Shown here one piece after another: positions 2,350-6,344 of a DNA stretch of 36,998 nt. Numbering within the stretch: position 1 is the first letter of the stretch; each line of letters starts with the position of its first letter. The notes beneath the pieces are model-generated. The model had not been told where the DNA came from and did not search any database. It saw nothing but the letters and a program-made list of their open reading frames with translations. The position numbers and the translations under genes were made by a program. Origin of the DNA: Acidimicrobiia bacterium (lineage in GTDB: Bacteria > Actinomycetota > Acidimicrobiia > IMCC26256 > JAGPDB01); the NCBI GenBank assembly GCA_018057765.1, contig JAGPDB010000019.1, positions 1-36,998 of the forward strand, written 5' to 3'.

Positions 2350-2378
2350 AATTGTAACAACCTAATGAAGTTACAATT
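2350..2378 (-). terminator. Weak stem-loop at the whiB7 3' end
   Basis: A perfect 9-base inverted repeat (AATTGTAAC at 2350-2358 and GTTACAATT at 2370-2378, loop 11) begins at the whiB7 stop codon. It is AT-rich and has no following U run on either strand, so it may be a weak terminator or mRNA 3' stabiliser rather than a classical Rho-independent terminator. Confidence 0.35.
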
Positions 2379-2730
2379 ATGCAATCTGTTTTACACTAAA
2401 CACTACTGCTTGCGCTTCTTGCTGGTCTTTTTCCTGTTTGGATGGCCGCCCACGACCTCGTTTTGATAATAATTCTTCACCATCAACGAAGATAACTCCA
2501 CCCCATACACCTGCATATGGTGGATCTAGTCGTGCAGAAGCCAAACATTCCTTTTGATTTGGACAAGACAGGCATAATTGTTGTGCAATTCGCATATCTT
2601 TAGTATTTTCAGAAAAAAATAATTCTGTCTTGCCCCTACACAATACCGATTCTTTTACTTTCGTATAACACGATAGTTTTTTGTCTTGTTCACGATGTTC
2701 GTATATTTGTTTATGCTCTAGTAGCGTCAT
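2377..2730 (-). CDS. whiB7: WhiB7-type Fe-S transcriptional regulator with AT-hook
   Basis: A 117-residue WhiB-like (Wbl) protein. The four cluster-binding cysteines are Cys31, Cys53, Cys56 and Cys62 (C-x21-C-x2-C-x5-C), with an extra Cys21. The turn motif GVWGG is at 74-78 and is followed by IF and a basic AT-hook, KRGRGRPSK at 90-98. The order GVWGG-x-IF ... KRxRGRPxK matches what I recall of M. tuberculosis WhiB7 and separates it from other Wbl proteins. WhiB7/WblC works with the principal sigma factor and activates intrinsic antibiotic-resistance genes after ribosome stress. About 19 residues past the hook are polar and extra. The ATG has a good ribosome-binding site (AAAGGAAAAGCAA). The 5' region contains an attenuator-like terminator, described separately. 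Confidence 0.92.
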   Translation of the reverse strand: MTLLEHKQIYEHREQDKKLSCYTKVKESVLCRGKTELFFSENTKDMRIAQQLCLSCPNQKECLASARLDPPYAGVWGGVIFVDGEELLSKRGRGRPSKQEKDQQEAQAVVFSVKQIA

Positions 2731-2738
2731 TTGCTTTT

Positions 2739-2810
2739 CCTTTAAAGAATTTGTGGTTAAAAAAACCGCCGGTTAAAAACTGGCGGTTTATAAGAAATTT
2801 CTTTAAAGAA
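2739..2810 (-). repeat. Pair of TTCTTTAAAG palindromes flanking the whiB7 terminator
   Basis: The 11-mer CTTTAAAGAAT occurs on the plus strand at 2740-2750 and 2801-2811. The distal copy extends to a perfect 12-base palindrome, TTCTTTAAAGAA (2799-2810). The proximal copy (2739-2750) is a near palindrome and, read on the transcript, contains the whiB7 ribosome-binding site AAAGGA. Because the units are palindromic, the two copies could pair with each other around the terminator hairpin and hide the ribosome-binding site. Confidence 0.6.
2759..2789 (-). terminator. Rho-independent terminator in the whiB7 leader
   Basis: Minus-strand stem AAACCGCCAGTT / AACCGGCGGTTT (2789-2778 with 2774-2763, one G-U type pair), loop of three, followed by a run of seven U (2765-2759). 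The run ends 28 bases before the whiB7 start codon, so whiB7 transcripts from upstream must pass it. There is no room for a full promoter between the terminator and the gene. Confidence 0.88.
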
Positions 2811-2823
2811 TCAGAATTTGTGT

Positions 2824-2901
2824 CTAAATAAGAAACCTCTGTCGCCAGATTGTGGTTTGCGTCGTAATTGCCGGTACTTTTAATAGTGTCGGTGAGTGCA
2901 T
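2824..2901 (-). CDS. Putative leader peptide (uORF) of whiB7
   Basis: A short open frame ends in TAG at 2824-2826. ATG 2901 gives a 25-residue peptide beginning MHSPTLLKV and ending WRQRFLI. An in-frame ATG at 3003 would give 59 residues and lies 8 bases behind a TAAATT -10-like hexamer, like other leaderless starts in this window. The longest version uses a TTG at 3057. None has a good Shine-Dalgarno. The I-W-R codons near the end overlap antiterminator strand A, which is why I read the frame as a regulatory uORF rather than a functional protein. Its existence as a translated unit is inference. Confidence 0.45.
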   Translation of the reverse strand: MHSPTLLKVPAITTQTTIWRQRFLI

Positions 2902-3058
2902 TACCACTGAATATGATGCAAAAATATTAGTGAATGCCTTAAAATCAGTGATTTTGGATACAATTGTCCCAGTAATCGATGAAAAGCCACCAAGATTTCG
3001 CATGGTTTCTAAATTTAACATGTAACTAGCTAAGCACATTCCACTAGTTAAGATCAAG

Positions 3059-3919
3059 CTAATTAATGAAATATTCTGGAAATATTTTTACAAGTACTTC
3101 ATCTAATGAAAAAGATCGATATGCCATAATCCCACTGGAGACTAAAATGCCTTCTGCATCTCTACGTTTGACCGTTGCACCAGCCATTTTTGCAATATAT
3201 TCAGCAGCTAGGTAATCCCAAGGATTTAGCATTACATCTTTATCATCAACATAGAGATCTAATGCAGAACGAGCGACGTCGCAAATAGCTAATGCGCTAG
3301 AACCAAGATTTCGTAAATGTCTAAATGGCATTGGTGGTCCTACATGTGAATTGAAATTAACTGTTGAAGAATTAAGATTATCTGCAATAGTACCTGGAGT
3401 TAAATTCGTGATATTAATATCCATCAGATTGTCAACAATCCCAGTTTTCACATTTTTATAGCTAACTCCGCCTATACCTGACGCTCGATATACGTTACCA
3501 GTTGTTTGATCGACAACTACACCACCTACAACTACACCTTTAGAAACAAGTGCAGCAGAAAAACTCCAATATCCTAAACCTTTAGATGCATTTGTTGAAC
3601 CATCGATGGGGTCAACGATCAGCCATAGAGAGTTATGTTGTAAAGCATCTTTATCTATAGGTTGTTCTTCACTAACAACACAGCCTTTGAACCCTTCACA
3701 AGATTGTGTAAGGATAGCATCAGCAATTACATCAATTTCATATTGATTTGCATGAGTATGCGTAGGATTTATTGCATAAGATATGCGTGTTTCTCTATCT
3801 ATTGTATTTACTGCTGTACGTATTTTATATGCAATCTCTTCACAACGATCTAATACTATTTCTATTTGTTCTGCATTTATTGACTCATTATTTGATGGAT
3901 TATCTGATGCAGTTGTCAT
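3059..3919 (-). CDS. Inositol monophosphatase family protein, copy 2 (divergent)
   Basis: A 286-residue IMPase-superfamily protein. Metal-binding motifs are present: SEEQ (Glu84, Glu85), DPIDGSTN (Asp103, Asp106) and a C-terminal NPWDYLAAEYI aspartate. The N-terminal region where family members usually have a D-x-VT-x-x-D segment reads differently (ANQYEIDVIAD), so it is more divergent than copy 1 and may act on another substrate. The ATG at 3919 overlaps the stop of the upstream small membrane-protein gene by 4 bases (ATGA), so the two are very likely translationally coupled. No terminator follows before the whiB7 leader, so some read-through into that leader is possible. Confidence 0.88.
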   Translation of the reverse strand: MTTASDNPSNNESINAEQIEIVLDRCEEIAYKIRTAVNTIDRETRISYAINPTHTHANQYEIDVIADAILTQSCEGFKGCVVSEEQPIDKDALQHNSLWLIVDPIDGSTNASKGLGYWSFSAALVSKGVVVGGVVVDQTTGNVYRASGIGGVSYKNVKTGIVDNLMDINITNLTPGTIADNLNSSTVNFNSHVGPPMPFRHLRNLGSSALAICDVARSALDLYVDDKDVMLNPWDYLAAEYIAKMAGATVKRRDAEGILVSSGIMAYRSFSLDEVLVKIFPEYFIN

Positions 3920-4582: not shown

Positions 4583-5146
4583 TTATTTTCTTTGTAACTT
4601 TATTAGCCCACGTTTTATGCCACTATCTACGACATTGAGTGCAGTTGGTAATTCGAACCAGGCTACTTTTTGAGATTCGTCTTCTGGCGGATTAATAAAT
4701 ATATTTTCACAATATCCAAAGAATTGAATATCATAATGAGTATGGCCATACCCAGTATCGTGAATATCTATATTGAAAATTTCTGGATCGAATGATGGCA
4801 AAAGACCCGTCTCTTCGAATACCTCACGCTGTGCCGCTAATATAGGCGTTTCTCCTAAATCTATGTGACCGCCAGGTTGTAACCACTTGTGAATACGTTT
4901 GTGAAAATGCAAGCACACGCCTAATTTCGAAGTGATAATCGCGGAAGCTGTCAAGTGGTGGTCGCCTAACGATTGTTCCGTTATTTCGTCGTATTGATTT
5001 GAACGCACCAGTTTTAGAATGGTTTTTAATTGTGCTTCTTCTTCTATCGTCTCCGGTGAATAGGCTATAAGCTGTTGGCTCAACTGCTCCGATAAATTTT
5101 GGTATAAAAGTGCTGATTTCGTTTTGTTCGATAAGTCTAAGGTCAC
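4583..5146 (-). CDS. NUDIX hydrolase
   Basis: A 187-residue protein with a complete Nudix box: Gly93-x5-Glu99-x7-Arg107-Glu108-x2-Glu111-Glu112-x-Gly114. Nudix enzymes cleave nucleoside diphosphates linked to another group; the substrate is unknown here. The region before the box (HHLTASAII ... FHKRIHKWLQPGGHID) and the 60-residue helical N-terminus match an actinobacterial Nudix subgroup I recall. This supports the GTG start at 5146 rather than a shorter form; there is no internal ATG before the box. An in-frame TAA TAA at 5150-5155 blocks any longer form. The first 323 bases overlap the MFS frame. Because the Nudix box lies in this frame, this is the real coding frame there. Confidence 0.88.
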   Translation of the reverse strand: MTLDLSNKTKSALLYQNLSEQLSQQLIAYSPETIEEEAQLKTILKLVRSNQYDEITEQSLGDHHLTASAIITSKLGVCLHFHKRIHKWLQPGGHIDLGETPILAAQREVFEETGLLPSFDPEIFNIDIHDTGYGHTHYDIQFFGYCENIFINPPEDESQKVAWFELPTALNVVDSGIKRGLIKLQRK

Positions 5147-6344
5147 GAGTTATTATGCTAACACGTAATGCGCAAATAGCGACACAAGTAAATGAAACGG
5201 CAATAAATAAAAGCATTTGTATTTGTATGGTGAAGAATTGAGAAAGAAATCCAAGACTAATAGCAGCAATAATTCTCGATCTTGCAGATCGCTGATTTAG
5301 ACCATTACAAAATGTTTTGTATCTTTCTCCATTGAGTTCTTTCGCCGCCAGCGTATGAATTGAAGAATAAGCTAGAGCCGACCCCACTCCCTCTATTACC
5401 GCACCAAAACAGGCCCAAAAAAGACCAAAATATGAACAATACAATACAAGACCTATGATTACCATGGCAGATGCATACAGCAACAGATGCCATTGCGTCT
5501 TTATAGAAATATTAATTTTTGTGTTTATTTTTGGTATCACAAACACTCCACAAATATATGCCGTCAGGCCAAATATGAAAAAGAGTAATGAATCCACTCC
5601 CTGCGAAAGGTGCGATACTGTTTTTAGAGCGACTGGCATTATACAGACAGAAAGACCACCAACAATATGGCTACTTAAATCGATCATGGAAAGAGTTCTA
5701 TTTTTGAAACTATTCTTTTCATTTTCTTTTATATCTGGTTCGAGCCTCCTTTTAAATGTTTTTTGATTATATTGAATATAGCCAGAGGTAATCAAGAAAC
5801 ATAAAAGACCAAACATAAACGAAGTAATTATTATGGGCAAAAAGTCAAGATGTAAGAATACAAAAGTAGCTGTTATAGCACTAATGCAAAGTATTCCCCC
5901 CATGTTAAAACCTACTAGTTTTGAAGCAAATGCATTATCGGCTTCAATATGTTTATGTGAAATTATTGGCATAGTAACTTCAAAAGATACTTTGGCAAAA
6001 CTACATATAAATACAACAAATATAAAAACATAAAAATTATTTGTCAAAAGAATCATTAGTGAACAAACTGAACCTAACAATGAAGCGGATACTTGTAGAG
6101 CTTTTATCGAATATTTTGAAAAAACATTGTCACATAGTTTATTTGCAAATAAAGTAGCACCTTGTAGCATTATTGTGACAATCGCAGAATTTAATATTGT
6201 TAAATCCAATTTAATAACTAGTAACACAAATGCAGAAGTCAAGAATCCAACACGTGTAAATCCATACAAAAATTGAAGCCATAGTATATGCTTTTTGAGC
6301 ATATGGTCTTCAGTGACTTGAGGTGTTTCGCGTATTTTACGCAT
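4824..6344 (-). CDS. MFS transporter; reading frame extended over the NUDIX gene
   Basis: Residues 1 to about 395 form a major facilitator superfamily permease with about 12 hydrophobic segments, a normal length for the family. Its substrate is unknown. The open frame then continues for about 108 residues through the 5' part of the NUDIX gene in another frame. That tail is polar and Arg/Ser-rich, with no membrane segment, and looks like a shadow translation. The neighbouring frame has TAA TAA at 5150-5155, just before the NUDIX GTG. A one-base indel near the end of the last membrane segment would therefore restore a normal stop. I treat about 5147-6344 as the reliable part. The ATG at 6344 lies in an 18-base palindrome. 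Confidence 0.8.
   Translation of the reverse strand: MRKIRETPQVTEDHMLKKHILWLQFLYGFTRVGFLTSAFVLLVIKLDLTILNSAIVTIMLQGATLFANKLCDNVFSKYSIKALQVSASLLGSVCSLMILLTNNFYVFIFVVFICSFAKVSFEVTMPIISHKHIEADNAFASKLVGFNMGGILCISAITATFVFLHLDFLPIIITSFMFGLLCFLITSGYIQYNQKTFKRRLEPDIKENEKNSFKNRTLSMIDLSSHIVGGLSVCIMPVALKTVSHLSQGVDSLLFFIFGLTAYICGVFVIPKINTKINISIKTQWHLLLYASAMVIIGLVLYCSYFGLFWACFGAVIEGVGSALAYSSIHTLAAKELNGERYKTFCNGLNQRSARSRIIAAISLGFLSQFFTIQIQMLLFIAVSFTCVAICALRVSIITRDLRLIEQNEISTFIPKFIGAVEPTAYSLFTGDDRRRSTIKNHSKTGAFKSIRRNNGTIVRRPPLDSFRDYHFEIRRVLAFSQTYSQVVTTWRSHRFRRNAYISGTA

Follow-up and report, generated by a model that had tools for sequence, protein, structure and literature searches.

Attenuation of whiB7/wblC transcription through an upstream open reading frame (uORF), a terminator and an antiterminator is established in Streptomyces and the mycobacteria (PMC11550727, PMC13236596, PMC4128351), the uORF attenuator having been described by Dinan et al. 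2014 (PMC4128351) and by Lee et al. 2022, as cited in PMC11550727. The vmlR leader of Bacillus subtilis is reported to join uORF-sensed transcription attenuation to translation attenuation (PMC9226507). The window analysed here, a 36,998-nt stretch of DNA from an Acidimicrobiia bacterium, contains a whiB7 gene whose leader, with a probability of roughly 90 % on comparative evidence, is a ribosome-mediated transcription attenuator controlling that gene.

The window whiB7 (2377..2730, minus; start codon ATG at 2730-2728) encodes a Wbl protein of 117 aa (PF02467, E 8.8e-10) with four Cys, a GVWGG turn and an RGRGRP AT-hook (within KRGRGRP), matching the features of WhiB7, while an NCBIfam search of this protein gave no match. 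Its orthologues in two other genomes of the genus (G001, leader L003; G002, leader L004) share 52-56 % identity with the window protein. A contig protein scan with the window WhiB7 as single query returned no match, the same scan with the genus WhiB7 alignment returned both known congeners and nothing else, and a viral contig scan with WhiB7 produced no match. Along the minus-strand mRNA the order is a promoter-like element, a uORF incorporating the antiterminator strand A, strand B within a terminator, 28 nt, and whiB7. The upstream neighbour is a phosphatase gene (3919-3059, minus), and whiB7, the family of this upstream gene, the uORF, the A:B pairing and the terminator are all kept across the genus.

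Two inositol-monophosphatase-like genes are found on either side of whiB7 (1463-2290 and 3059-3919, minus), and in several further families (L011, L019, L028) whiB7 is likewise preceded by a gene of this kind. The G001 locus is present on two near-identical short contigs (C52 and C182), probably as an assembly duplicate. Among the class-level genomes, two or three whiB7-like genes per genome, some of them adjacent, are encoded in G079, G059 and G176, and the ~1.1 Mb genomes of family f22 are without a close whiB7 match, so that gene and switch may have been lost there. Elsewhere in the window a membrane-transporter-like frame (4824-6344, minus), for which Pfam gave no match, overlaps a NUDIX-like gene (GTG 5146) by 323 nt in a different frame; this region (4583-6344, minus) may have lost a stop codon, carry a frameshift or represent an unusual overlap.

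An intrinsic terminator with a 7-U run (2759..2789, minus) precedes whiB7. Its stem (minus, 2789-2763) reads AAACCGCC-A-GTT-TTT-AAC-C-GGCGGTTT and consists of 8 bp, an A.C mismatch and 3 bp, with the U run at 2765-2759 and a gap of 28 nt to the whiB7 ATG. A sequence-only reading of the locus had placed a strong terminator at exactly these coordinates (stem 2763-2789, seven U, 28 nt before the ATG), and the hairpin was recovered as a predicted fold (z = -4.0; 0/200 shuffles equally stable), the whole leader having a folding z of -4.15. A general terminator scan of the window called no site at the whiB7 leader, and an Rfam search at gathering level returned tRNAs only and no leader family; sub-threshold Rfam sRNA matches over the terminator were weak and were judged to be due to chance. 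Fifty-eight genomes of the order were searched, and forty-four whiB7 leaders had enough upstream DNA. The terminator is recognisable in 43 of these (40 by script and three, L012, L034 and L048, by hand), the sole exception being L015, where none was found. The order terminator is strikingly uniform, AGGCCGYCGGG-loop-CCCGGCGGCCT followed by a U-rich tract, and it stays in place as the genes upstream of whiB7 vary between families, which indicates that the hairpin belongs to whiB7.

Strand B (CGCCAG; 2780..2785, minus), as judged by comparative pairing evidence, can either form the 5' arm of the terminator or pair with strand A (CTGGCG; 2843..2848, minus), which lies in the uORF codons Ile-Trp-Arg. 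The complementarity of these two hexamers had been pointed out from the sequence and was confirmed to the base, as was the location of strand A in the last codons of a short frame ending at 2824 (TAG 2826-2824). The spacing between CTGGCG (2848-2843) and CGCCAG (2785-2780) is 57 nt. Among dinucleotide shuffles of the window sequence, 17.7 % contain a 6-bp A:B match somewhere in 220 nt and 1.07 % contain one at a distance of 53-59 nt. The match, with a core of only 6 bp, is thus weak by itself, and the case for pairing rests on comparison. The congeners L003 and L004 have the strands CCGACGG/CCGTCGG and TCCGACGG/CCGTCGGA, spaced 57 and 55 nt, respectively. Seven A:B pairs align across the genus: four have not changed, two carry double substitutions (C-G to U-A; A-U to G-C), and the window has lost the remaining one. 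At column 80, strand B of the window carries an A that has its partner in strand A (columns 10:80), yet forms an A.C in the terminator (columns 80:93). The change to U-A therefore costs the window a terminator mismatch, and the antiterminator pair has been kept at the expense of the terminator.

The same layout is found in 43/44 leaders of the order. Each of these has a terminator, a reading frame that stops 20-47 nt ahead of it and, 32-58 nt upstream, an A strand, which is weak or ambiguous in several members. The best complement to the terminator 5' arm peaks 40-55 nt upstream, where the mean score is 26.2, compared to ~13-17 elsewhere, and in none of 1000 random reassignments of A strands to B strands across genomes did the score reach that of the leaders' own A:B pairs. 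In a 36-sequence alignment, standard pairs make up 92.2 % of the A:B cells; shuffles give 87.7 % and sliding of the strands gives 28-58 %. Changes on both sides affect four pairs and 20 cells, against 1.6 and 5.5 in shuffles. At the swinging core position the A:B pair is A-U in 14 rows, G-C in 14 and G-U in one, whereas in the terminator the B base involved faces a constant G (C-G 19, U.G 16). The B base follows strand A while its terminator partner stays G; thus a U at this position is explained by strand A and not by the terminator. This U/C swing, which keeps the antiterminator pair and costs the terminator a G.U, constitutes sequence-level evidence for a two-state model. It is found within two genera, that of the window and that of L028/L050, and is thus not a single inherited event. 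Since shuffles ignore relatedness and overstate significance, weight is placed on the slides, the double changes within the genus and the genus-collapsed A:B test (p 1.2e-5); the A strands across the class are less uniform and were excluded from these statistics. The sequence-only reading had suggested aligning the upstream regions of relatives as a check, and the alignment yielded A:B covariation and supports the two exclusive pairings of strand B in the order. The A:B complementarity and the frame end near it, on the retention of which in relatives that reading had staked its case, are conserved in both genus and order. With this layout and covariation, the proposal that the whiB7 leader device known from mycobacteria and streptomycetes works here gains support.

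The interval between strands A and B is predicted to hold a hairpin, with a 5' arm (AGAGGTTTCTT; 2830..2840, minus) and a 3' arm (AAGAAATTTCT; 2793..2803, minus) obtained from the fold of the A..B segment. For the window leader (L001) the predicted folding energy is -17.4 kcal/mol for this segment and -13.1 kcal/mol for the terminator hairpin. In nearly all leaders the predicted antiterminator hairpin matches or exceeds the terminator in stability, the two being equal in L004. By these folds, the antiterminator hairpin can form before the terminator. Nested pairing is predicted within the interval in every leader folded, and in many high-GC leaders the interval contains a GTAGC...GCTAC hairpin enclosing the uORF stop codon. 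This hairpin recurs between uORF stop and terminator, for example in L014, L016 and L019, and perhaps closes the antiterminator loop. The 57-nt loop had earlier been regarded as a weak point, an objection that falls away given that the predicted nested pairing fills the loop and that leaders of the order generally have spacings of 32-58 nt.

The proposed attenuator would operate as follows. With unhindered translation of the uORF, strand A would be covered by the ribosome while RNA polymerase makes strand B, which would then pair with the terminator 3' arm, and transcription would end 28 nt before whiB7. Ribosome stalling or poor initiation, as brought about by a translation inhibitor or tRNA shortage, would expose strand A, which could pair with B in a long hairpin holding the nested stem; the terminator would be blocked and whiB7 transcribed. 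The WhiB7 produced in this way would probably go on to activate its own promoter. The window leader would accordingly be expected to respond to antibiotics.

An addition to this attenuator, which we regard as tentative and on balance doubtful, is that in the window's low-GC genus one ribosome-sensing switch sets both passage through the terminator and opening of the whiB7 Shine-Dalgarno (SD). A linker segment, P1 (TTCTTTAAAGAA; 2799..2810, minus), has a suggestive 12-nt pairing potential with the whiB7 SD region (TTCTTTAAAGGA; 2738..2749, minus; SD AAAGGA at 2743-2738). Pairing of P1 with the SD around the terminator could block translation of leaked transcripts, and the nested hairpin of the antiterminator, which has 5 nt in common with P1, could take up P1 and free the SD; both levels would be tied to one switch, the SD-hiding strand being part of that hairpin as well. 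Uninterrupted linker-SD pairings of 12, 11 and 10 nt are present in the three genus members, helix lengths whose frequencies elsewhere in the respective genomes are 0.0045-0.009, 0.020 and 0.030, and the dinucleotide-shuffle p values are 0.0025, 0.0005 and 0.059. Furthermore, the unpaired probability of the window SD is 0.06 in the free fold, against 0.31 with A:B enforced, and vmlR is reported to combine both attenuation types. However, pairings with duplex energies like those of linker and SD are frequent in the three genomes (13 %, 8.5 % and 43 %), SD exposure in L003 barely moves (0.50 to 0.56), with a clear change limited to the window and L004, and the idea arose after the data had been seen. 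The linker-SD pairing was not seen in the rest of the order, and SD sequestration as an order-wide feature was rejected by folding of the order leaders. The attenuator described in the sequence-only reading is supported; the possible linker-SD pairing had been overlooked there.

The uORF of the window (2824..3021, minus, from the open reading frame listing) comprises 65 codons, with ATG at 3021-3019 and stop TAG at 2826-2824, and its open frame could begin at TTG 3057; the frames of L003 and L004 have ~80 codons. In L003, L004 and the order the corresponding frames end 20-47 nt, mostly 22-27 nt, before the terminator. Strand A is in the same codon phase in the window (C|TGG|CGA) and L003 (C|CGA|CGG), and differs in L004. 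Many high-GC members share a uORF peptide pattern, ending near SW...HKP.PRR..V.SP, in which the PRR codons encode strand A. The uORF pN/pS is ~0.79 over pairs (range 0.34 to 1.59 among pairs), which suggests that constraint on the peptide is weak, while the frame and its end are conserved. Such constraint is what would be expected if the uORF monitored translation in general and did not encode a specific arrest peptide. It would also suit a protein- or metabolite-sensing leader functioning without a translated uORF, but we consider this very improbable, since an open frame with a near-fixed end distance is kept throughout, a good SD precedes the uORF ATG in many high-GC members of the order and no Rfam family matched the leader. 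Sensing of alanine starvation by the window uORF is not favoured, with three Ala among its 65 residues, compared to 14.6 % in the rest of the order.

In WhiB7-type promoters an AT-rich box lies 3 nt before the -35 element. The window has a promoter-like TAATT-AGC-TTGATC (3052..3065, minus), identified by comparison with the order leaders, in which an AT-rich box and 3 nt precede the -35; the -35-like motif is TTGAT, where most relatives have TTGAC, and TTAGCT at 3033-3028 may serve as the -10, which is poor in the window. Within 15-230 nt upstream of the uORF, TTGAC is found in 33/43 order leaders, against an expectation of 0.15 per leader, and is often preceded by an AT-rich box, for example TAATTGGCTTGACC. 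That most leaders carry box and TTGAC ahead of the uORF is consistent with WhiB7 autoregulation. In the genus, the uORF ATG is located about where transcription should start, so that a leaderless uORF is likely. The position of the hairpin between the phosphatase gene and whiB7 would allow it merely to terminate the former, with a whiB7 promoter directly before the ATG, but this is very improbable, given that only 28 nt are available for such a promoter, that the hairpin accompanies whiB7 even where the upstream gene differs, that the promoter-like element sits upstream of the uORF and that a plain terminator would leave the A:B covariation without a role.

The window leader is thus well supported by comparison as a further case of the known whiB7/wblC attenuator. 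With the Streptomyces and mycobacterial systems it shares a uORF, an intrinsic terminator, an antiterminator and whiB7. Presumptive Streptomyces genomes (7-10 Mb, ~70 % GC) have the uORF stop at -22 to -26 relative to the terminator and strand A 42-52 nt upstream, and in other orders of the window's class the same geometry is seen, although it is less uniform. The sequence of the leader and its peptide are unlike those of Streptomyces and the mycobacteria, and the window leader differs further in being AT-rich, in its probably leaderless uORF with 3 Ala in 65 codons and in a possible SD-pairing linker. The covariation extends uORF-controlled whiB7 attenuation well beyond mycobacteria and streptomycetes, to a mostly uncultured class in which some genomes are small and low in GC, and its occurrence in so distant a class points to a probably ancient origin of the device within the phylum. 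The vmlR leader has uORF-sensed transcription attenuation in common with the window, while its gene and RNA are unrelated, and in the window the translational layer is no more than a suggestion. As in the trp/ilv-type attenuators, the position of the ribosome would select terminator or antiterminator, but unlike these the window uORF is without a run of a single regulatory codon at a position where stalling would free strand A.
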